In this document: positions 12,781 through 40,149 of the stretch, in pieces
Position numbering within the stretch: position 1 is the first letter of the stretch
Layout of the letters: the number at the start of each line of letters is the position of its first letter
DNA from: Acanthosoma haemorrhoidale
Lineage: Eukaryota; Arthropoda; Insecta; Hemiptera; Acanthosomatidae
Direction: 5' to 3'
Assembly (NCBI GenBank): GCA_930367205.1
Contig: OV884011.1
Location: forward strand, 41,863,754 to 41,927,753
DNA length: 64,000 nt
Position numbers and translations under genes: made by a program
Notes under the pieces: generated by a model
What the model was told of the DNA's origin: nothing
What the model saw: only the letters and a program-made list of their open reading frames with translations
Database searches by the model: none

Positions 12781-12786
12781 ATTAAC
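12781..12786. repeat. Target-site duplication, left copy (ATTAAC)
   Basis: ATTAAC here is repeated at 20843-20848. Uninterrupted array units have a single ATTAAC at this point, so it was duplicated on insertion. Six base pairs is the known Polinton/Maverick duplication length. Confidence 0.95.
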
Positions 12787-13470
12787 AGTAGATGGGTTTT
12801 GGGCGTTCTGGCGCACCGATATGGACCAATCAGAGAGCTCCATTTGGCCCCGCCCCTTTACCCCCACCCTACCCTAACCAGCCAATGACAGGGCTTGACG
12901 GCCATTTTGACCACGCCCCCTTACCCCCACCCCGCCCTTAACCATCGCTAACCACCCCTAACCATCGCTAACCACCCCTAACCATCCCTAACCACCCCCT
13001 TTTATCCGCCATTTTGTCTTCTAATTCCCAATCTGCTCACCAGATAGCTCTGCATATAACCTTACATCTTTATAACCATAACTTTCATCCGCCATTTTGT
13101 TCCCCCACCTCCTTACATAACCGCCATCCCTGAACATCCTTTAATTCCCAATCTCCTCACCAGATAGCGCCTTATATCATAACCTTATCTATACATAACC
13201 ACACTTGATGAACTAAATGACCGCTAGAGTGCGCCACCTTTATAACCTTCTTCATATATAACCTCATAATAATAATAACAAACAATATGGCCGCTCTATT
13301 TATATCCTTACTAGTTTATAACCATATCGGAAACTAAATGTAAACAAAAATATTATTTGTAAACAATAACAAACCCTCTCCTCACCCCCTTTTATCCGCC
13401 ATTTTGTCTTCTAATTCCCAATCTCCTCACCAGATAGCGCCTTACATCATAACCTTACCTATATATAACC
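12787..13470 (+). repeat. Left terminal inverted repeat
   Basis: 684 bp, matching the reverse complement of 19920-20842 apart from scattered differences and one extra 239-bp unit on the right. The outer part is GC-rich and contains alternating 10-mers (CCATCGCTAA / CCACCCCTAA) at about 12943-12995. CCGCCATTTTG occurs at 13006, 13089 and 13396, a match to the YY1/Pho recognition core. The inner part is AT-rich. Confidence 0.93.
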
Positions 13471-13488
13471 ACACTTGAGGGTTCAGTT
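13460..13488 (+). promoter_or_regulatory. Possible core promoter of first element gene
   Basis: TATATATAA at 13460-13468 and initiator TCAGTT at 13483-13488 precede the ATG at 13497. The spacing of about 25 bp is shorter than for the other genes of the element, so this assignment is weaker. Confidence 0.45.
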
Positions 13489-13496
13489 TATCAACG

Positions 13497-13996
13497 ATGA
13501 TGGTTCAGTACACAACAGAGTTAGCATTAGTAACTGTCTATCCACTCAATTATTTATTAAAAAAGTTTATAAAAGTGGGGCTCCGTGCTGGAGTACCAAT
13601 GGTAGCTCTAGTCGACAAGAAATCTACAATCTACCTAGACAAAGAACAATGGGATGAATTGAGAGCCAGGTCTTCAAACATCTTGGATCATTTCAAGAAG
13701 AAAAAAAGATAAAAACTGATGCTGCGAGCGTCACAGAAGAAAATGATTCGATTCGATTAAAAAATATTGACATCTCACTAACAAAAAGAGGTAAAGTAAG
13801 ATGCTTGAAAATTGAACATGCTTATCCATGGACACTATTGTTGAATGAAAACATCACACCATATATAAAGTTAATATCACCAAATATTATTTTGAAAAAA
13901 TGCGAATGTATTAAATTGTGTGAACTGTTTGATTATGTTTCAAAATCATTGACTTTTTTGTACAATGTTATTGAAAAATTTGAGTACAACCAATAA
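13497..13996 (+). pseudogene. Hypothetical small element gene, apparently frameshifted
   Basis: A 71-codon frame begins at the ATG at 13497 and ends at 13712 in a Lys-rich tail over an A7 run at 13701-13707. A second frame, offset by one base, is open from 13658 to the stop at 13996 and contains the run KIEHAYPWTL. Taken together they look like one protein of about 170 residues broken by an indel in the A run. The site does not fit a canonical -1 slippery heptamer, so a mutation is more likely than programmed shifting. An AATAAA signal overlaps the terminal stop. I recognise no domain. The alternative is two separate small proteins. Confidence 0.5.
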
Positions 13997-14237
13997 AAAA
14001 TTTTTTTTACAACAAATTGTTTTATTTTTAAAATCACATTTTTTTTGTTCTATTTATTAATTTAAGGTTTAAAAAAAACACAAAAAAAAAACACATGTAT
14101 TTCAACATTTTTATTTCTAAATTATACATAGAAAACTAAGATGGGTGCTTACACAGAAAAAAAAATTATACTAATATTAAAAGTTTTTTTATTTTTTCCC
14201 TTTCATTCATCAGAGGTAAAATTGGTCTATAAGTAAG
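13997..14237. other. AT-rich gap between element genes
   Basis: Contains long A and T runs and the polyadenylation signal of the upstream frame. No open frame or other structure was found. Confidence 0.6.
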
Positions 14238-14275
14238 TATATAAAGAGGAAGCGATGAAGCTATTCTGGTCAGTA
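14238..14275 (+). promoter_or_regulatory. Core promoter of ATPase gene (TATA + Inr)
   Basis: TATATAAAG at 14238 and initiator TCAGTA at 14270-14275. The predicted start of transcription is at 14272, downstream of the first in-frame ATG (14255). The ATG at 14282 is therefore the likely start codon. Confidence 0.75.
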
Positions 14276-14281
14276 TTCAAC

Positions 14282-15029
14282 ATGCGTCTGGTGAAGCAAC
14301 ACGACACTTTACGCATTGTCAGTCTCGACAATTACGGCTCCCCAGAGGAAAAACCATCGAGGCACGGTTCTCTATTGCCCGATTCTATCAGATGTCTCGT
14401 ATGCGGACCATCTAATTGCGGGAAAACGAATCTCATGTTGAGTTTGATTTACGATCTTAAAGGTTTAAGGTTCGAGAATATATATTTATTCGCTAAATCA
14501 TTGCATCAGCCAAAGTATAGGCAATTGGGGCGAGTACTTGAGCCTTTAGAGAACATTGCATCAGCCAAAGTATAGGCAATTGGGGCGAGTACTTGAGCCT
14601 TTAGAGAACATTGGATTTTTTCAATATGACAATAACGCAAATGTACCACCTCCAAAGGAAGCTCGACCTGATTCGATATTTATTTTCGATGACATAGCTT
14701 GCGATAAACTAGACAACGTACGAGCATATTTTTGTATGGGAAGACATAATGGCGTGGACATTTTCTATTTGAGTCAAAGTTATACGAGAGTTCCAAAACA
14801 TTTAATCAGAGAAAATGCAAATCTCCTCATTCTCTTCCGACAAGATGAACTAAATATGAGAAGGATCTATGATGATCACATCAACTCGGATATGGATTTG
14901 AAAACTTTCAGAAATATATGTCATTGGTGTTGGAAAGATGATAAATATGCATTTATCGTATTGGACAAAGAGAGAGAGATAAAAAACGGGAGATATCGAA
15001 AAGGATTCGATACATATATAATACCTTAA
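14282..15029 (+). pseudogene. FtsK/HerA-type genome-packaging ATPase, broken by a 55-bp tandem duplication
   Basis: In Polintons and related viruses this family drives DNA into the capsid. The first frame (to 14575) carries a Walker A motif, GPSNCGKTN, about 42 residues from the 14282 start. The second frame (from about 14558 to 15029) carries a Walker B-like FIFDD and a later SQSYTRVPKHL segment typical of the A32-like group. The 55 bp at 14503-14557 are repeated exactly at 14558-14612. Since 55 is not a multiple of three, the frame shifts and stops. Without the duplication the protein would be of ordinary size for the family (about 230 residues). The start at 14282 is chosen because the promoter puts transcription start after the 14255 ATG. 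Confidence 0.85.
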
Positions 15030-15050
15030 ATGGTCACCTCAGGCTCAGTC
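15015..15050 (+). promoter_or_regulatory. Core promoter of DUF8207-type gene
   Basis: TATATAAT at 15015-15022 and initiator TCAGTC at 15045-15050, giving a 15-nt leader before the ATG at 15062. The TATA box overlaps the last codons of the ATPase frame. Confidence 0.75.
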
Positions 15051-15061
15051 TAATAGTAGAC

Positions 15062-16141
15062 ATGGAGCAGTCAACATCTTCTGAGGCGGTCACTCGTGAA
15101 ATTATCCGAGCGAGGGAAGCGATTCAACAAAAGTGCAACTTGTTGAAGAGAAATAGAGAAGAGATTGATGAGTACTTGAAAGAAAAATATAAACCTATTA
15201 TCAGGACCCTGAATAGCTTAAACTTTCAAACAGCCTTAACTACGGATCAGGATCAAGACAATTTTTCATCTCAGCGTGTGAAGAAGGAGAAAAAATCATG
15301 CAATATCGCCCTCCCAACTTATTTTGATATTCCGGCTAAGGGAGTCATGTCGACGACTAATTCCCTAGAAACGCCTCGAATGAAATTATTTGTGTCAGAG
15401 AACGATGGAGCCGGACCTGCGGAAGAGAGATTGTATGAACATAGTCCTCAAGTGGGGGTTACGGGAGATGAATTATATGAATATAGTCCTCAAGCGGAGG
15501 ATATCCCCCCGATTGCTACAACACCAAAATATGAAAATAAAGAGGTCATAGAGCCAAAATCTTCTTTGCAGATGATGAGAGAGGAGGCACAAACTCCAGA
15601 AGGGGGCGAAACAGTTAGATACAAGTTAAAAGAAGTTGGTACAATCGCATCTAAATACGTTAAAAAACTTATTAACAACGATATAAAAGATAAGAACACC
15701 ACCTATGGCGTAGTCTATGATGGTGAGAGATTCACCGTTGGAGATGCAGTGGTTTCGATTAAGAAAGATGTTATTTACGTTGGACACAATGCATATAATG
15801 GTACATGTGGTCTTTATGAGTTGTTATTTATGAGCGATCCAAATCTCGAACTAGCAGAAAAGAATGACTATGATATATACAAGAGGATATTGAATGAGAC
15901 AAATGCTCATCGGAAGAATTATAGCCCCACTTCTGCAATACATCGTAATAAATTCAATAGGAAATATAATAAAGTTATTTCGAAACTATTTCAACCGAAA
16001 AAAGGGGGTGAAGTTGTTCATGATCCTAATTTCTTAGTGAACAGGATGAGAGAGTTGATTGATTCGCCTGACGGTGCTCAAAAACGTCTTGAGATTCGTC
16101 GTGTAGAGAAACGACTCAGAGTAGGAGGTATTATAGCTTAA
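15062..16141 (+). CDS. DUF8207-type conserved element protein
   Basis: 359 residues, intact. A charged, probably coiled N-terminal region (residues 1-50) is followed by a low-complexity middle with a short internal repeat (LYEHSPQ / LYEYSPQ, about 124-144). The DUF8207-like domain covers roughly 210-310, with TTYGVVYDGERF, the GTCGLYELLF block and TNAHRKNYSP. The C-terminal part, DPNFLVNRMRELIDS, also resembles the tail seen in this family. Such proteins accompany integrase-bearing insect virus-like elements. Their function is unknown, and a minor virion or DNA-associated role is only a guess. The gene lies between the ATPase and the integrase with its own promoter. Confidence 0.8.
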   Translation: MEQSTSSEAVTREIIRAREAIQQKCNLLKRNREEIDEYLKEKYKPIIRTLNSLNFQTALTTDQDQDNFSSQRVKKEKKSCNIALPTYFDIPAKGVMSTTNSLETPRMKLFVSENDGAGPAEERLYEHSPQVGVTGDELYEYSPQAEDIPPIATTPKYENKEVIEPKSSLQMMREEAQTPEGGETVRYKLKEVGTIASKYVKKLINNDIKDKNTTYGVVYDGERFTVGDAVVSIKKDVIYVGHNAYNGTCGLYELLFMSDPNLELAEKNDYDIYKRILNETNAHRKNYSPTSAIHRNKFNRKYNKVISKLFQPKKGGEVVHDPNFLVNRMRELIDSPDGAQKRLEIRRVEKRLRVGGIIA

Positions 16142-16166
16142 AATTGAAAATCACTTCCACATCCAA

Positions 16167-16202
16167 TATTTAAAGACGGAATCGTTCCAAACACCATCAT
16201 TT
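16167..16202 (+). promoter_or_regulatory. Core promoter of integrase gene
   Basis: TATTTAAAG at 16167-16175 and initiator TCATTT at 16197-16202, with 32 bp from TATA start to the initiator A. The leader to the ATG at 16248 is 49 nt. Confidence 0.7.
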
Positions 16203-16247
16203 CGTCCTGAGACGTCGACTAGACAACAAGAAACATATCATATTATT

Positions 16248-17187
16248 ATGACGGCTCTCAAAGAGCAGATTGTACGAGAGTTGCACAAACCAGTCAGAAG
16301 GACATTCAAACGCAGATCCGTTCTACTCAAGGGGATTGATGATTTATGGCAGGCAGATTTAGTAGAAATGATTCCGTACTCGCGATTGAATAATGGCTAC
16401 AAATACGTACTCACAGTTATCGACTGCTTCTCTAAATACGCTTGGGCGGTACCAGTCAAAAATAAAACAGCGCTTGAAGTCAAGCTGGCATTTGAAAAAA
16501 TCTTGACAAAGAGGAAACCTCGAAATATTCAGACAGACAACGGCAAAGAGTTCTACAATAAGGAGTTTAAAAAATTGATGAAAGACAATAATGAGATCAA
16601 TCATTACTCTACATATAGCAATATGAAAGCTTCCATAGTGGAAAGATTCAATCGAACATTAAAATCTGAGATGTGGAAAAAGTTTAGTATGCAAGGTGAC
16701 TATAAATGGCTTCACATTTTAAATCCACTTCTCAATGAATACAACAAAAGAAAACATAGTACGATCAAAATGGCACCGAACTCAGTGAAAGGGAAAAAAA
16801 ATTGAAAAGCAGCTATTAAATCAAGTGTACGGCTCAAAAGATCACAAACTCATTGGAAATTTACCCAAATATAAAGTCGGAGACCGAGTCAGAATATCAA
16901 AATTCAAAGCTCAGTTTGCTAAAGGCTATCAACCGTCTTGGACAACGGAAATTTTCACTATTGCTCGAGTCAAAAAGACTGTACCCGTAACATATCATTT
17001 GAAGGATGATCGAGGTGAAACTATCGCTGGAGGTTTCTATCAAGAAGAGCTACAACTAGTCAAATACCCCAACTGCTATCTTGTTGAGAAAATCATAAAA
17101 AAGAAAGGTGATAAAGTTCTTGTCAAGTGGTTAGGTTTTGATAATTCACACAACAGCTGGGAAAATACTGACAACATCGATATATAA
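16248..17187 (+). pseudogene. Retroviral-type integrase with C-terminal chromodomain, one-base frameshift
   Basis: The RNase H-fold integrase core is open from 16248 to 16805. The catalytic triad is visible as D37 (WQADLVEM), D97 (QTDNGKEF) and E132 (IVERFNR), with D97 and E132 35 positions apart. An A8 run at 16794-16801 carries one extra base relative to the continuing frame, which stays open to 17187 and encodes an SH3-like linker (VGDRVRISKFK) and a chromodomain (YLVEKII ... VLVKWLGFDNSHNSWE). Family knowledge: the enzyme inserts linear element DNA with 6-bp staggering, and the chromodomain may guide it to chromatin. The usual N-terminal zinc-binding region is absent or very short. Confidence 0.88.
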
Positions 17188-17215
17188 GACGTGTCATCGT
17201 CAAATGTAATCATTC
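17181..17215 (+). promoter_or_regulatory. Core promoter of protease gene
   Basis: TATATAAG at 17181-17188, overlapping the integrase stop region, and initiator TCATTC at 17210-17215. The ATG follows at 17220, giving an 8-nt leader. Confidence 0.72.
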
Positions 17216-17219
17216 CGTC

Positions 17220-17705
17220 ATGAAACGTTCACCAGTCAACAACAAGAAAAGCAAAAAGAAACTGCGCATTATCATCACACCACAACGAATCGGAGGAGGA
17301 GGCTGTCCGAGTAAATTGAGTGAGGAAGCCAAACAATTTCAACGAATCATACCAAGAACTAGATTGAGCACTTTAGATTTACAACTATTGGCAAAAGTGT
17401 TTCAAGTCAAAACATTTAGAGGAGTTTTTATGTGTGACGAATTTCCCACTAAGGCTTGGAAAAACGAACGTGCAATTTTCAATTTGGATAAGAACAGTGG
17501 AAAAGGTACACATTGGGTGTCCTATAAGAAAATTGGGCATTCGGCTCACTTCTTCGATAGCAGTGGAGCTGACCCTCCATCCGAATTTATACGTTATATG
17601 AAAAATTGTCGAATCTCTACAAACAAGATACAATATCAAAAGATTGGCACGAATAATTGCGGTCAACTCTGCCTCCTATATTTACTGGATTTCATAACAT
17701 CCTAA
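17220..17705 (+). CDS. Adenain-like cysteine protease (Ulp1/C48-C5 fold)
   Basis: 161 residues, intact. Catalytic residues are visible in order: H98 in GTHWVSY, D113 in HFFDSSG, and C147 in TNNCGQLCLLYL. The segment FRGVFMCDEFP ... AWKNERAIFNLD before the histidine is typical of the Polinton/adintovirus protease. Family role: cleavage of capsid-associated precursors during virion maturation. The basic N terminus and the glycine run (IGGGGCP, about 24-30) are unusual, and the latter could be a self-processing site, which is inference. It precedes the capsid-type gene, consistent with a morphogenesis module. Confidence 0.88.
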   Translation: MKRSPVNNKKSKKKLRIIITPQRIGGGGCPSKLSEEAKQFQRIIPRTRLSTLDLQLLAKVFQVKTFRGVFMCDEFPTKAWKNERAIFNLDKNSGKGTHWVSYKKIGHSAHFFDSSGADPPSEFIRYMKNCRISTNKIQYQKIGTNNCGQLCLLYLLDFITS

Positions 17706-17726
17706 GTTAGAAGAGCAATAGGAGCC

Positions 17727-17888
17727 ATGGGTTTGGACTTTCGAAAGGTATATAAAGGTACAGCGAAGGAGAAAACCCTCATTCCGGTGAAGACCGTAGG
17801 AGAGAGTACACCGTTAAGTGAGAGTAATCGACGTTTTCTTCAATCACTTGGATATTTTGTTCTATCATCAACATGGAAGAAATACTAA
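17727..17888 (+). CDS. Small open frame upstream of capsid-type gene
   Basis: 53 codons from the ATG at 17727, ending at 17888 and overlapping the start of the next gene (17873). The C-terminal half, LSESNRRFLQSLGYF, resembles small proteins that precede capsid genes in related insect elements as I remember them; this is a weak match. The TATA box and initiator of the capsid-type gene lie inside it, so it could be made only from transcripts starting upstream. It may be a genuine small protein or an artefact. Confidence 0.4.
   Translation: MGLDFRKVYKGTAKEKTLIPVKTVGESTPLSESNRRFLQSLGYFVLSSTWKKY
17749..17784 (+). promoter_or_regulatory. Core promoter of capsid-type gene
   Basis: TATATAAAG at 17749-17757 and initiator TCATTC at 17779-17784, 32 bp apart. 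The leader is 92 nt with no ATG before 17873. Confidence 0.75.
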
Positions 17889-19123
17889 ATTTGGAAGGAA
17901 GTCCAACGTTTCGAAATTCAATCGAATGCATAGAACTTCACTCTCATCATCCGTATACTTCGTCAAAACTTTCATCTGGTGATGAGATACGCATCAGCTT
18001 GCAACATCAAGACTTGTACACGTTGCCAAGCCGTAGTCTGCTCTACATCGAAGGGAAGTTTGTCCGACAAGATGGAATCACGATCCCAAGAATGTCAAAG
18101 ATGACAAACAACGCAATCGCCTTCCTCTTTGACGAGATTCGATACGAGTTGAGTGGAGTTGAAGTTGACCGTGTAAAAACCCCAGGAATCACGTCTACTT
18201 TAAAAAATCTCATTTCATTGAGAAGTGGACAGTCAAACTCTTTGAAATATCAAGGATGGTGTTATCCAGACGATGAGCTTCATAACTTTACATCAGACGA
18301 AGGAGAGTTCAATGCGGTTGTTCCATTAGCTGCCTTGCTTGGCATCTTCGAAGACTACTCGAAAATCGTACTAAATGTAAAGCAAGAATTGATTCTTATC
18401 AGAAGCCGACAGGACACGAACAGTTTCAAAACTAGTGTACCAGCCGAAGGGCAAGAGATGCTCGAAGCGTGTAAGATTGAGTTACTCAAGCTCTGTTGGA
18501 AAGTACCGTACGTAACGGTAGACGAACGTCAGAGACTTGCTCTTATGCGTCATCTAAAATCTGAAAAAACGTTTTCTATTCCTTTTCGTAGTTGGGAACT
18601 CTTCGACTATCCACTCTTGTCCTCGAGCAAAAGGCAAATCTGGTCGGTCAAAACATCTAATCAATTGGAAAAACCGCGTTATATCATTTTAGCATTTCAA
18701 ACTAATAGAAAAAATAACCCCCTCACGGATTCTAGTCAATTCGATCACTGCGATTTAACAAACGTTAAACTCTACCTGAATTGTAAATCTTATCCTTATG
18801 ACGATATGAACTTGGATTTTTCATCAAATCGATACGCTCTACTCTATCACATGTACGCGGCGTTTCAACAGTCTTACTACAGTGAAGATTCAAAATATAT
18901 TAATCCTCCTTCGTCTTGGGAAAATTTCAAAAATAAAGCGCCTTTGATTGTGATCGACTGCTCGAAACAAACCGAATCTATAAAAAGTGGACCAGTAGAC
19001 GTCAGACTCGAGTTTGAATCGAAAAATAATTTTTCGGGCCTTACAGCAGCCTACTGTCTCATCATACATGATAGAGTAATTGAATACAATCCGTTAACGG
19101 GTATAGTTCGCCGAATGGTATAA
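17873..19123 (+). CDS. Double-jelly-roll major capsid-type protein
   Basis: 416 residues, intact. The N-terminal segment with SSGDEIRISLQ and LPSRSLLYIEGKF, then FLFDEIRYELSGVEVDR, ELILIRSRQD, FRSWELFDYPLL, KLYLNCKSYPYDDMNLDF and the C-terminal AYCLIIHDRVIEYNP match a protein family common in insect virus-like elements, which I recall as DJR-like. Its place after the protease and ATPase supports the capsid role. It has no resemblance in the visible motifs to the nematode/vertebrate Polinton capsid group, so it may represent another capsid lineage. No signal peptide or membrane segment is seen. A structure prediction would be decisive. Confidence 0.75.
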   Translation: MEEILNLEGSPTFRNSIECIELHSHHPYTSSKLSSGDEIRISLQHQDLYTLPSRSLLYIEGKFVRQDGITIPRMSKMTNNAIAFLFDEIRYELSGVEVDRVKTPGITSTLKNLISLRSGQSNSLKYQGWCYPDDELHNFTSDEGEFNAVVPLAALLGIFEDYSKIVLNVKQELILIRSRQDTNSFKTSVPAEGQEMLEACKIELLKLCWKVPYVTVDERQRLALMRHLKSEKTFSIPFRSWELFDYPLLSSSKRQIWSVKTSNQLEKPRYIILAFQTNRKNNPLTDSSQFDHCDLTNVKLYLNCKSYPYDDMNLDFSSNRYALLYHMYAAFQQSYYSEDSKYINPPSSWENFKNKAPLIVIDCSKQTESIKSGPVDVRLEFESKNNFSGLTAAYCLIIHDRVIEYNPLTGIVRRMV

Positions 19124-19155
19124 ATAAGACATTGACATACGCTAGGGAGTCAGTT
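19119..19155 (+). promoter_or_regulatory. Core promoter of last element gene
   Basis: TATAAATA at 19119-19126 overlaps the capsid-gene stop; the initiator is TCAGTT at 19150-19155. Transcription would begin at 19152, after the ATG at 19132, so the ATG at 19162 is preferred. Confidence 0.75.
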
Positions 19156-19161
19156 GTCAAG

Positions 19162-19668
19162 ATGACCTCCTGCGTGGCGGATCTCCAATGTTTCGTGAAC
19201 CATGATTTTGATTTTATTGTCAAAGAACTTGCAATTTTCGACATTGACTCTTTATGCTTATGTCATTGGCTTTTCAAACCACCGCCACCCAAAAATTCAA
19301 TTAAATTAAACTCAAACGCTAGACGTACCAATAAATGGTTATTCTCTCATTATCACGGTATCAATTGGAACGTGGGAGATGTGGAATACAACATGTTGAA
19401 CTCAATCCTTCGTCAAACTCTTGACAAATATTCTGAGGTCTACGTCAAAGGAAGGAAGAAAATGCTATTTCTTCAACGTTTCACTCAAACTAGAGTAATT
19501 GATCTTGAAGATGACGGCTGTCCAAGAATTGAGAGTTTACAACCGCCTTTGACTGTACGCATGTTGGGAGGCACTCATTGCTTAGTGCATAATGACAATC
19601 CGAAAATGTGTACCCTTTATCGGGTTCATTCTTTAGCCAGTTGGCTACGAGAGACTTTTTCTTTGTAA
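19162..19668 (+). CDS. Conserved insect element protein of unknown function
   Basis: 168 residues from the preferred start at 19162 (the frame is open from 19132). The pattern ADLQCF ... IVKELAIFD, HWLFKPP, NKWLFSHYHGINW, VYVKGRKKMLFL and VIDLEDDGCPRIESL recurs in many insect genomic proteins linked to mobile elements. The spaced acidic residues in strand-like contexts (ADLQ, FDID, VIDLEDD) suggest a possible RNase H-like or DEDD exonuclease fold, but this is inference without structural support. It is the last gene of the element and has its own promoter. A polyadenylation signal follows near 19745. Confidence 0.6.
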   Translation: MTSCVADLQCFVNHDFDFIVKELAIFDIDSLCLCHWLFKPPPPKNSIKLNSNARRTNKWLFSHYHGINWNVGDVEYNMLNSILRQTLDKYSEVYVKGRKKMLFLQRFTQTRVIDLEDDGCPRIESLQPPLTVRMLGGTHCLVHNDNPKMCTLYRVHSLASWLRETFSL

Positions 19669-19919
19669 ACAATTTATTTTGAATTTATTTTATGTAATTA
19701 AATTTTTTTAAATTATATGTAATAACATATGTTATAAAGCTTGACAATAAAATTTTTTTTTTAAAATATATTAAATCTGTTTTGTTCTTTTCCCTATTTT
19801 CAACTAAAAATTTAAAATCAATTGATGCAACATGCCTTTTACAGGCATGAATTTATATTAAGATAATCTTACACTAACTTGTTTTAACAAGTCTTTCTAC
19901 GTGTATAAATGGAAAAAAA
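19669..19919. other. AT-rich 3' flank of last element gene
   Basis: Contains AATAAA near 19745, T and A runs, and a short inverted TTTTACAGGCATG-like motif near 19835-19850. No frame was found. Confidence 0.5.
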
Positions 19920-20842
19920 GGTTATATATAGGTAAGGTTATGATATAAGGCGCTATCTGGTGAGGAGATTGGGAATTAGAAGACAAAATAGCGGATAAAA
20001 GGGGGTGAGGAGAGGGTTTGTTATTGTTTACAAATAATATTTTTGTTTACATTTAGTTTCCGATATGGTTATAAACTAGTAAGGATATAAATAGAGCGGC
20101 CATATTGTTTGTTATTATTATTATGAGGTTATATACGAAGAAGGTTATAAAGGTGGCGCACTCTAGCGGTCATTTAGTTCATCAAGTGTGGTTATATATA
20201 GATAAGGTTATGATATAAGGCGCTATCTGGTGAGGAGATTGGGAATTAGAAGACAAAATGGCGGATAAAAGAATAATATTTTTGTTTACATTTAGTTTCC
20301 GATATGGTTATAAACTAGTAAGGATATAAATAGAGCGGCCATATTGTTTGTTATTATTATTATGAGGTTATATATGAAGAAGGTTATAAAGGTGGCGCAC
20401 TCTAGCGGTCATTTAGTTCATCAAGTGTGGTTATGTATAGATAAGGTTATGATATAAGGCGCTATCTGGTGAGGAGATTGGGAATTAAAGGATGTTCAGG
20501 GATGGCGGTTATGTAAGGAGGTGGGGGAACAAAATGGCGGATGAAAGTTATGGTTATAATGATGTAAGGTTATATGCAGAGCTATCTGGTGAGCAGATTG
20601 GGAATTAGAAGACAAAATGGCGGATAAAAGGGGGTGGTTAGGGATGGTTAGGGGTGGTTAGCGATGGTTAGGGGTGGTTAGCGATGGTTAAGGGCGGGGT
20701 GGGGGTAAGGGGGCGTGGTCAAAATGGCCGTCAAGCCCTGTCATTGGCTGGTTAGGGTAGGGTGGGGGTAAAGGGGCGGGGCCAAATGGAGCTCTCTGAT
20801 TGGTCCATATCGGTGCGCCAGAACGCCCAAAACCCATCTACT
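19920..20842 (-). repeat. Right terminal inverted repeat
   Basis: 923 bp, inverted match to 12787-13470. Units start at 19921, 20191 and 20430 with GTTAT(A/G)TATAG. The 239-bp unit 20191-20429 is an extra copy relative to the left repeat and lacks 31 bp of its neighbour. 684 plus 239 equals 923, so this single duplication explains the length difference. Confidence 0.93.
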
Positions 20843-20848
20843 ATTAAC
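20843..20848. repeat. Target-site duplication, right copy (ATTAAC)
   Basis: Second copy of the 6-bp duplication. The tRNA-Lys gene begins 11 bp to the right of the insertion junction. Confidence 0.95.
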
Positions 20849-20926: not shown

Positions 20927-21098
20927 ATTATTTTTTGTTGTAGTATAGAAAATAATTTACCAGAATAATAAATTAATTAGAATATTTAATTTAATTATTA
21001 TGCTTCTTTATTATTTATTGGTATCATTTAGCACTATTTTTCAAATTACTATTTCTACAAAAAAATTTTTTAATATAAAAGATGTTCTTACAGTTAGT

Positions 21099-21822
21099 GT
21101 TTAGGGGAAAATTTGGAAAATTGCTTGGCATAAATAATATGCTTATCTTGACAGGGTCTAAAAGGCAGAAGAAGAATTTCCGCTGGTTCAAATTCGCAAG
21201 GTTCGCTGGTGTCAGTGATAGCTTGGGCGAGACCACGGCTTGGACATGGTGTCCTCATCAAAAAATTGTTTAATCTCTATGTCTTGATCTCTATCTTGAT
21301 CCGCGTTTAAAACTATAATCGACATCCTTTGCTCATCACAGCATCTACTTATTCCTCGTATTTACATACGTTTTTTAGTTATATATAATTTATATTTTTT
21401 ATGGAAGTATCTGCATATGAATCTACTTATCATCACACCGCTTTTCGCCCATATTATAATGTTTAGGGGAAAATTTGGAAAATTGCTTGGCATAAATAAT
21501 ATGCTTATCGTGACAGGTTCTAAAAGGCAGAAGAAGAATTTCCGCTGGTTCAAATTCGCAAGGTTCGCTGGTGTCAGTGATAGCTTGGGCGAGACCACGG
21601 CTTGGACATGGTGTCCTCATCAAAAAATTGTTTAATCTCTATGTCTTGATCTCACTCTTGATCCGCGTTTAAAACTATAATCGACATCCTTTGCTCATCA
21701 CAGCATCTACTTATTCCTCGTATTTACATACGTTTTTTAGTTATATATAATTTATATTTTTTAGTCAAGTATCTGCATATGAATCTACTTATCATCACAC
21801 CGCTTTTCGCCCATATTATAAT
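21099..21822 (+). repeat. 362-bp tandem duplication inside one spacer
   Basis: 21099-21460 is repeated at 21461-21822, joining ATTATAAT to GTTTAGGGG. This stretches the tRNA-to-tRNA distance here to 1,214 bp instead of 852. Confidence 0.92.
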
Positions 21823-22067
21823 GCGAATATTCGGTAACTGCAAAAATTCTGTCCTATTCCAACCGTAACCTCTAGGAATTGTTTTACTTTCTTTATTCCT
21901 AATATCCTCACACAGTAATAATATTTGTTGCTGTTAACATTTTTAACAAGTTATTTTTATTACAAATACTCAACATATATTTTACCATACGTTATAAAAC
22001 CTTGTTCTTGGAGAGCGAATACATCTCAAAGAGTAGTAGTAGTAATCGTGAAGGTTATTAACTAATA

Positions 22068-30152: not shown

Positions 30153-30225
30153 GCCTGGATAGCTCAGTCGGTAGAGCATCAGACTTTTAATCTGAGGGTC
30201 TAGGGTTCAAGTCCCTATTCGGGCG
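30153..30225 (+). tRNA. Solitary tRNA-Lys(TTT)
   Basis: 73 nt, with the same D arm and anticodon arm as the array genes. Three differences were found. Position 4 is T, making a T-G pair in the acceptor stem. The outer T-stem pair is changed on both sides from C-G to T-A (TAGGG ... CCCTA), a compensatory change showing selection on the fold. The flanks are unrelated to the array spacer. A T5 terminator lies near 30232. Confidence 0.95.
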
Positions 30226-38300: not shown

Positions 38301-40149
38301 AAGGACTCAGTGTCATTAAAATGACTAGGCCTCAAAAAAGAAAAAAAATATGCATACATATTCTTTTAATTTATTTATTGGATTATTTTTACTAATAGAA
38401 AAATGAACATATTCTTCTATATTTTTTTTTACTTTTCATGGTATGCTGAATGTGCTAGATGCTCTTTTATGTTATTACAGAGCAAAGGCTGCAGGGATTC
38501 GTACATCTAAAAAGATTGCTGCTGTTAATGCGGCACAAAAAAATGATAGCTCTTCAGATGACAATTTGTATATAGATGAACGTTCTGAGTCAGAGAGGAA
38601 ACAAATCAATTTTCAAGAAGCACAACCTTTTTCACGTCCTGCGATCCGTTTTTCTAGGGTTAGAAAACTCATCAAGGGCCCATCAGAAAATACCCCTCTC
38701 GACTATTTTTTACTAGTGTTCAGTGATCACATTTTCAATTCAATAGTGGAAAAGATCAATTCAAATATAAAGAGGCCTCCTGAGTGTAGCTCGAGTACTG
38801 CTGGGAAGATTAGATATTGTGAAAAAGTCTCCAGAGGGGAATTTGAGGTTTTCCTAAGCCTGTTATATTTAATGGGTTTTGACAAACTACCATCCATTGA
38901 GGATTATTGGAATCAGGTCAACATTTTTAATAACTATATGTCATATCATCGTTTCATACAAATTTTCAACTGTATCGATTTCAGTGAGGTAATAACGGGC
39001 CCAATAATAACTGATAGCAACAATTGCGAAGAATTGTCTAGAGTCCAGCCACTGATGAATATGTTCACGGAACGAATGAATGAGGTTTACATTCCCGGAA
39101 AAGAGCTTATGATTGAAAAGCCATTGACAATTGTTGACACTGTTAAAAATGAAGGAGTAAAGATTTATGCTCTAGCAGAGCCTACTGGGCTGGTCTTAAA
39201 AACACTTATCTATGGGATCAATGATAAAAAGTTACATAGTAAAGATCATGAATTGAACGTTGTTCGTAAATTAATGGAGAGGTATCTTTTTTTTGGGCAC
39301 AGCTTGTATTTAAGCGATTTATACGGTTCTATAGAATTAGCTTCAGAGTTGATTCGTCATAATATTAATACTACAGCTAAAATCAGGCACAACAGAATGC
39401 CTAATCCACCAGATTTTCTGAATAGAACTTTGTGCAGTGAAGAAGATTTGGCTCAGCAATTTACAGATGATGGAGTATGTGTTATCAAGTGGTGTGATAA
39501 TCAAAAGAATGCTGTTGTTATGCTTTCTACAGAATACTCAGGTGTGCTAACAAACACTAAACTTGATGATAAGCTAAGTACTATGCCTCATATGTTGGGC
39601 TGGTATAAACTATATATGTATTCATACAGAGCTGCTAGTTTCATGGATTACTATCCTCTAGAAAAGAATGATATTAGGTGGAACTTGAAGGTGGTAATCA
39701 ATATATTTTACTCAATCTTATACAATAGTCATATACTATACTATCTATTTTCAGGAAAATATATACAATTAATGAAATTTCAATTAACAATTATTAAAGC
39801 TTTAATATCTAAAAATGTAAAATCTGGTCAGCATCACTCTACATTTCACCAACAGAGACCACTGAAACCACTTAATAACCCAGAGAGACCCAAGCAACAA
39901 AGTGACGAACAGAGAGTAGAGCAACTGAAATCTCACCAACAAAGTCCTTTGAAAACAATATTTAATTCAAATCCTATTCATGTGCCTGGAATAAAAAAAA
40001 TTGGCTGTAAAATAAGAGAACCCTGTAAAATTTGCTTTAGGAGGGGGATCTTAGTAGATGTTCAAACATATTGTACCAATTGTGATAGTCAGCCTGTGTT
40101 ATGCATTCCTAACTGTTTTGAACAATTTCATCGTCACCTTGCCCGTTAG
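35365..40149 (+). CDS. PiggyBac transposase-derived protein, three coding exons
   Basis: Exons are 35365-35419 (exon opening at 35351 after TTACAG), 36177-36246 (TTTTTTTCAG acceptor, GTATAT donor) and 38481-40149 (TTATTACAG acceptor). Intron phases 1 and 2 match across both joins, and the total is 597 codons plus stop. Exon 1 starts MGGKKKKLDVAKG, a possible nuclear signal. The DDE_Tnp_1_7 (piggyBac) domain spans about residues 100-470. Of the three catalytic aspartates, the first position is E275 (ALAEPTG); the others appear as D321 (LYLSDLYGS) and D381 (IKWCDNQK). A C-terminal Cys/His cross-brace finger occupies about 550-595. Introns plus the altered catalytic site suggest a domesticated host protein, though an old decayed transposon with a fortuitous open frame is possible. 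No piggyBac ends (TTAA with CCC) were noticed. Confidence 0.75.
36440..36830 (-). pseudogene. Eroded LINE reverse transcriptase fragment in intron 2
   Basis: On the minus strand, KATVIAFAEEIAVY near 36730-36775 resembles the RT catalytic (F/Y)ADD motif with both acidic residues changed. It is followed by SESWTISKKEEL and RRIFRSVLG near 36585-36655, as in the tail of non-LTR RT proteins. Stops and frame changes are frequent. Confidence 0.4.

Follow-up and report, generated by a model that had tools for sequence, protein, structure and literature searches.

The window analyzed here is a stretch of 64,000 nucleotides on contig OV884011.1 of the hemipteran Acanthosoma haemorrhoidale (assembly GCA_930367205.1), and its subject is a virus-like element of about 8 kb (Table 1) that carries capsid and integrase genes of the Polinton/adintovirus kind and no gene for DNA polymerase B (PolB). 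Elements with closely matching ends and a PolB gene lie elsewhere in the host genome, and we propose that the two kinds may be components of one system. The window element runs from AGTAGATGGG to CCCATCTACT, with AG...CT ends, between exact copies of ATTAAC. Its terminal inverted repeats are identical at 570 of 571 nucleotides, with one mismatch, and the inner 239-nucleotide unit of the right repeat is present again beside it. The first-pass annotation, made from the sequence alone, had listed a 6-bp target-site duplication (TSD), an AG start, long inverted repeats, and complete ends, all of which we confirm.

Apart from PolB and, perhaps, a penton protein, the element and its sister copies encode everything required of a Polinton. 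The capsid protein is of the double-jelly-roll (DJR) type, as first annotated. Its nearest named relatives come from Rhodnius prolixus (69% identity) and Cimex (57%), it is 49% identical over its full length to the named hexon of the Megastigmus wasp adintovirus, and it is recognizable as a hexon by BLASTp; sequence searches of the PDB gave no match. The adenain-like protease likewise stands. Two other predictions needed amendment. Both domains of the predicted chromodomain integrase are present, but they lie in different frames in the window copy, whereas two other copies have a single 349-amino-acid (aa) frame. The packaging ATPase is present too, but a 55-bp duplication breaks it here; its pieces give weak profile matches, and the ATPase of a sister copy exceeds the Pox_A32 cutoff (24.9 versus 22.8 bits). 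Together with the 5' open reading frame (ORF), this makes three broken genes in the window copy. The relatives of the 359-aa protein match PF26634, a family whose name we take to be DUF8207. Relatives of the 169-aa protein in the full-length PolB element and the PolB component described below end in BIR or weak BIR domains; a structure model of the 169-aa protein itself (mean pLDDT of 36) was too poor and was not used. By our own ORF assignment, just 786 of the 6,562 nucleotides that separate the repeats are unoccupied, which leaves no room for a PolB gene, as the first reading of the sequence had held, and no PolB match was found within the element.

Table 1. Features of the window element (window positions), its complete sister copies, and PolB elements with matching ends (host contigs designated by C numbers)
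Feature	Position	Strand	Remarks
8-kb element	12787..20842		8,056 bp; ends and target duplication read from sequence
TSD ATTAAC, left copy, 6 bp	12781..12786	.	Sequence; array neighbors represent the empty site
Left terminal inverted repeat	12787..13357	+	571 nt; begins AGTAGATGGG
5' ORF, function not assigned	13497..13993	+	Broken here over two frames; single 172-aa frame in three other copies
A32-like packaging ATPase	14255..15026	+	Broken here by 55-bp duplication; one 245-aa frame in five other copies
55-bp exact tandem duplication	14499..14608	+	Absent in 6 of 6 other copies retaining that ATPase stretch
DUF8207-type protein, 359 aa	15062..16141	+	PF26634 precomputed for its relatives
Retroviral-type integrase core (rve)	16137..16802	+	rve, E=1.9e-14
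Integrase C terminus with chromodomain	16789..17187	+	Chromodomain, E=1.8e-7
Adenain/S273R-like cysteine protease, 161 aa	17220..17705	+	S273R match, E=0.0075
Small ORF, ~53-60 aa	17718..17885	+	In 8 of 8 other copies examined; two frames in one of these
DJR major capsid protein, 416 aa, adintovirus hexon family	17873..19123	+	PF21738, E=2.5e-116
169-aa protein, function not assigned	19159..19668	+	
Right terminal inverted repeat	20272..20842	-	
TSD ATTAAC, right copy	20843..20848	.	Sequence
Complete capsid copy	C6		7,756 bp; TSD TATATT
Complete capsid copy	C1		9,538 bp; TSD CAAATG
Complete capsid copy	C4		8,410 bp; TSD CCCACC
Complete capsid copy	C20		7,730 bp; TSD TATTTT
PolB element	C4:64846208-64856230		10,023 bp; TSD GATTTA; PolB frame 1273 aa
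PolB element	C3:42174771-42186399		11,629 bp; TSD TGTATA; PolB frame 1271 aa
PolB element	C4:35894119-35904622		10,504 bp; TSD AGTGTA; PolB frame 1269 aa

We searched the 866-Mb host assembly for the capsid, PolB, and integrase, scoring 100 of 487, 91 of 287, and 150 of 6,138 candidates, respectively. The capsid matches fell into 33 rows of one type (A type; 83 to 100% identical), several of them two pieces of one copy, and 67 others (43 to 50%). When these were compared with the 59 places of PolB domains obtained from the scored candidates, a listed PolB lay within 20 kb of none of the 33 A-type matches and of 26 of the 67 others. Other capsid groups at approximately 49 to 50% (for example, C29:48841, C63:495720, and C19:116479) also had no listed PolB within 20 kb; they may represent additional lineages without PolB or truncated copies, or may reflect the bounded listing.

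The surroundings of ten further capsid loci were read. There are five ordinary complete copies, the window's included, which measure 7,730 to 9,538 bp and have a 6-bp duplication each of their own. A further insertion lies on two small contigs (C10 and C52); on both, the hexamer CCAATC flanks one end of the insertion, and an insert of about 1.8 kb interrupts the capsid gene. One capsid copy, split in the middle of that gene, recurs on the small contigs C8, C9, C10, C12, C26, C52, C53, C64, and C65. The copy at C4:16.27 Mb is truncated on the left, and that at C6:118.8 Mb is partial and rearranged. Eight other copies were examined for gene frames, and in two of them all eight frames, those of the integrase and the ATPase among them, are open, which rules out that the element is a pseudogene only, and a one-off internal deletion is ruled out by the existence of a short family in many copies. 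The PolB-less element forms a multicopy family and, as the first-pass annotation had surmised, a distinct short lineage; the converse prospect it raised, that most copies with these ends would be 15 to 20 kb long and carry PolB, does not hold among the copies found. An integrase core 100% identical to that of this family, in a 367-aa frame, lies at C1:11738129-11738683 with no capsid or PolB nearby among the matches listed; it may be a deletion form or yet another component.

A genome search that used the outer 350 nucleotides of the window repeat as the query (best 40 of 325 candidates scored) recovered two complete repeat pairs besides the window's own, and both enclose PolB (the C4:64.85-Mb and C3 elements in Table 1). 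Their repeats match the window's at 98.8 to 98.9% over 571 nucleotides, with 349 of 350 positions identical in the outer part. The repeats of five other capsid copies match it at 93% and 78 to 81%, and those of two more at 97 to 99% over 185 to 281 inner nucleotides only. Near its ends, the C4:64.85-Mb element retains remnants of the capsid component's 5' ORF (43 aa, 98%) and 169-aa ORF (80 aa, 89%). Also present are the ends of PolB, a 99-aa ORF, a 214-aa protein related to the 169-aa ORF whose BIR match falls slightly below the cutoff, and a piece of a different capsid gene, namely its C-terminal 94 aa, which are 50% identical to the A type. The parts read gave no match to integrase, ATPase, protease, or DUF8207, and outside the repeats and the PolB frame approximately 420 and 350 nucleotides are unread, too little for an integrase gene to fit. 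Neither this element nor the one on C3 had an integrase or a capsid among the matches listed (best 150 of 6,138 and best 100 of 487, respectively), and the PolB elements of 10.0 to 11.6 kb as a whole, one partly read and the others searched, yielded neither a capsid-type integrase nor a complete capsid gene. The polymerase component has PolB and, as far as read, no integration or shell genes. Because remnants of both sources are kept, it appears to be the PolB block of another adintovirus set between capsid-component ends.

The same correspondence recurs with a second repeat type. When the C1 capsid copy's repeat was used as the query (best 40 of 266 candidates scored), the search recovered the PolB element C4:35894119-35904622, whose repeats match those of the C1 copy at 97% over 447 nucleotides, and a repeat end of this type (91%) lies 6.6 kb from the PolB at C6:122.38 Mb. 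Capsid and PolB elements have both moved, each kind with clear target duplications. Their ends match within each of two repeat types and differ between the types, and in both types shared ends occur on components with different gene sets. A complete pair of 10,415 bp at C6:108837887-108848301 (TSD AAAGTA; content unread) has the same first 34 nucleotides as the C10 capsid copy. Six repeat pairs 4.0 to 7.4 kb apart, with no capsid or PolB among the matches listed, are probably non-autonomous. On C8, the element's repeat end recurs at least 33 times, always in one orientation, over 127 kb (C8:1063315-1190338), a satellite-like array derived from the terminal repeat. The first-pass annotation had suggested replication from another source; separate PolB elements of 10.0 to 11.6 kb with these ends are a concrete candidate for that source, and we infer that their polymerase would be used in trans.

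Two further loci bear on the relation between the components. At C2:141.06 Mb (locus L048), a left repeat is followed by an N-terminal part of PolB, a capsid-component fragment (corresponding to 16602-19246), and a C-terminal part of PolB; by eye, the PolB parts are similar to those of the C4:64.85-Mb element's frames, and a second repeat was not seen in the stretch read. This locus is a recombinant between the capsid and PolB components. At C2:42901106-42910714, 9,609 bp form an inverted dimer of the element's right half, with both ends complete and the TSD GGTATA. Its arms are 99.75% identical over 4,396 columns, with no mismatches and 11 gap columns. Such a structure is what strand-displacement replication would leave if it started at one terminus and folded back, and if its product were then integrated as a unit. 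Inversion of an already inserted copy is disfavored because a target duplication at both outer ends is not expected from it.

We consider it somewhat more probable than its alternatives combined (roughly 0.56) that a Polinton/adintovirus-like system of two components is present, with the 8-kb element as its capsid-integrase component and a PolB component that shares the same ends. A split genome would be the simplest mechanism: capsid, protease, packaging ATPase, and integrase would come from the capsid component, and the protein-primed PolB from the second element with the same terminal repeats. Where one cell expresses both, PolB would copy any linear molecule with these ends, the integrase would insert linear copies of either component and create a 6-bp duplication, and either one could be packaged, and perhaps transmitted, by means of the capsid genes. 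Short terminal reiterations serve jumping back in protein-primed replication, and the AGTAG(T/A) termini presumably resemble such reiterations. We hold a more specific version only tentatively, at slightly short of even odds: that this is a truly bipartite double-stranded DNA virus-like element, with capsid-integrase and polymerase genes on separate integrating molecules whose shared repeats evolve and are exchanged, which keeps a matched pair in each repeat type, the polymerase component having been assembled from capsid-component ends and the PolB block of another adintovirus.

Several observations weigh against the two-component reading. Since candidate scoring was bounded for capsid, PolB, and integrase, the absences are bounded too, and the PolB list is demonstrably incomplete: it missed decayed pieces of PolB that lie past the duplication of the C20 copy, 1.2 kb outside that copy, as well as pieces inside the C2:141.06-Mb recombinant, which is one of the 33 A-type matches. 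Gene sets were compared in eight other copies on the capsid side; on the PolB side, content was read, in part, for the C4:64.85-Mb element only, the C3 element being known from searches. The matches of two capsid copies to the inner part of the window repeat mean that repeat types mix, and the 4.0- to 7.4-kb pairs suggest that any cargo may be mobilized between such ends. No penton-like gene was recognized in the capsid component. Pairs among seven capsid gene sequences differ by 0 to 3 synonymous and 0 to 14 nonsynonymous changes, and purifying selection is not visible in these young copies, which are too similar to judge. Finally, full-length adintovirus-like elements resident in the genome encode both PolB and integrase and could serve both components.

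The last point is the core of the chief rival explanation, which we judge unlikely but clearly ahead of the others: the capsid and PolB elements would both be non-autonomous satellites, served in trans by such residents. One resident, C4:30289009-30302314, is complete (13,306 bp; TSD GTTAAA; start AGTAGTACAG) and carries a PolB of 1225 aa and an integrase, with genes in mixed orientations. It also encodes a T7-tail-fibre-like 146-aa protein, two BIR-domain (inhibitor of apoptosis) proteins, one of them fused to a relative of the 169-aa ORF, and a weak Adeno_PX match. A 235-aa ORF without a Pfam match, which we take to be its penton, gave no tblastn match in the capsid element. The resident resembles the capsid element in its integrase core (60%), capsid (50%), protease (45%), 169-aa ORF family (30%), DUF8207 protein (29%), and 5' ORF; it differs in having PolB, in its mixed gene orientations, and in repeats unrelated past the first nucleotides, and the parts read contain no match to the capsid element's ATPase. 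Dependence on such elements is consistent with how commonly other capsid types lie near a listed PolB, with the short repeat pairs that lack listed genes, and with a start that agrees with the window element's in AGTAG and with those of two capsid copies in AGTAGT. However, BLAST did not match the resident's ends to these repeats, and by eye the agreement covers the first 5 to 6 nucleotides only, whereas the ends of the PolB elements match the window's along the whole repeat, and the capsid element keeps all its frames open in the two copies noted above.

It is improbable, in our assessment, that the two forms are merely a defective pair, derived by internal deletion and recombination from a full-length parent with these ends that was recently lost or went undetected. 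The recombinant and the remnants would fit such an origin, as would young capsid genes without visible constraint. Against it, no intact copy combining an A-type capsid with PolB was found among the scored matches or the loci read, frames remain open in both components, and gene orientations differ between the resident full-length element and the capsid element. In addition, the capsid remnant kept by the C4:64.85-Mb PolB element belongs to a different gene, and therefore the components are not simple complementary deletions of one parent. Least probable is that host DNA polymerases replicate the PolB-less element and the PolB elements are incidental, for although host replication of the integrated form is compatible with all data, the near identity of the PolB elements' ends, found in two repeat types, and the resemblance of the inverted dimer, with its TSD, to a strand-displacement fold-back from a terminus speak against it.

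The two-component system proposed here can be compared with several known systems. With insect adintoviruses and Polintons (Eupolintoviridae; for example, the Megastigmus wasp adintovirus and Drosophila-associated adintoviruses 1 to 3), the capsid element shares the capsid family, the chromodomain integrase, the Ulp1/adenain-type protease, the packaging ATPase, inverted repeats, the 6-bp duplication, and AG...CT ends. Insect adintoviruses bear PolB and measure 13.3 to 14.6 kb as excerpted in PMC8363768, whereas the capsid element measures 7.7 to 9.5 kb, lacks PolB and a recognized penton, and has its polymerase on separate elements with the same ends. The first-pass description of "half normal size" is accurate against Polintons of 15 to 20 kb but not against these adintoviruses or the 13,306-bp resident. 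The available text of PMC11071296 defines adintoviruses by PolB and hexon, with a chromodomain integrase, the hexon being recognizable by BLASTp and PolB having an N-terminal OTU-like domain. The element shows the Polinton/Maverick features (6-bp TSD, AG...CT, long repeats, integrase, ATPase, protease, and DJR capsid), and it is not filed as a strict Polinton or adintovirus because PolB was looked for in the element and not found; when paired, it would work like one.

A DJR capsid without PolB is also found in Polinton-like viruses (PLVs) and in adenovirus-like genomes. According to the same partial text, some genomes with adenovirus-class virion proteins lack a recognizable PolB and integrase (PMC11071296), and part of PMC11071308 describes PolB being replaced by other replication proteins; PLVs mostly have such a protein and lack this integrase. 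The capsid element, in contrast, keeps the integrase, has no other recognized replication protein, and has a matched PolB element. Split genomes occur in bidnaviruses, some with up to twelve segments (excerpt of PMC11071296), and in the bipartite Acheta segmented densovirus (excerpt of PMC10267136). Those are single-stranded DNA viruses with parvovirus-type capsids, whereas here double-stranded DNA Polinton genes are integrated as separate elements. No title or abstract opening in the literature searched concerned a Polinton divided, as proposed here, into two elements with the same ends.

Polintons are held to be self-synthesizing, each carrying its own polymerase. If the two-component reading is true, this would be a split-genome Polinton. 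It would offer a natural model for the origin of multipartite genomes out of defective forms that complement one another, and a clear example of cooperation among virus-like transposons within one chromosome set. Matched ends and polymerases would provide testable pairs for protein-primed replication, and short "non-autonomous" Polintons in annotations may, as a warning, be genome components.

Scans of viral contigs did not find relatives of the capsid element. A scan of bacterial genomes found a distant capsid relative (29%) at positions 246-1556 of a Balneolales metagenome-assembled genome contig (L001), which is probably a mis-binned eukaryotic virus contig. The ORF downstream of that capsid resembles a PolB N terminus by eye only; Pfam gave just Rho_N, and there was no significant match to the window.

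The window element itself is inserted 11 nucleotides upstream of a tRNA-Lys gene, in one unit of a tandem tRNA-Lys(TTT) array (window positions 23-26400) whose units of approximately 852 bp hold one gene each. The window has 21 other tRNA-Lys genes, and 20 of them keep an uninterrupted ATTAAC site directly upstream, the exception being an extra copy at 30153 without the array flank. Ty3-type elements likewise insert upstream of tRNA genes (excerpt of PMC5911963). Targeting of tRNA genes was considered and dropped, since none of 17 stretches surrounding ten other insertions or fragments of the capsid family yielded a tRNA with ARAGORN; the available part of a cryptophyte study similarly reports no tRNA within 1 kb of PLV insertions (PMC12220804). 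Elsewhere in the window, a 362-bp tandem duplication lies between two tRNA genes of the array (21098-21823), and a piggyBac-type transposase frame of 568 aa occupies 38443-40149 (DDE_Tnp_1_7, E=6.4e-42).

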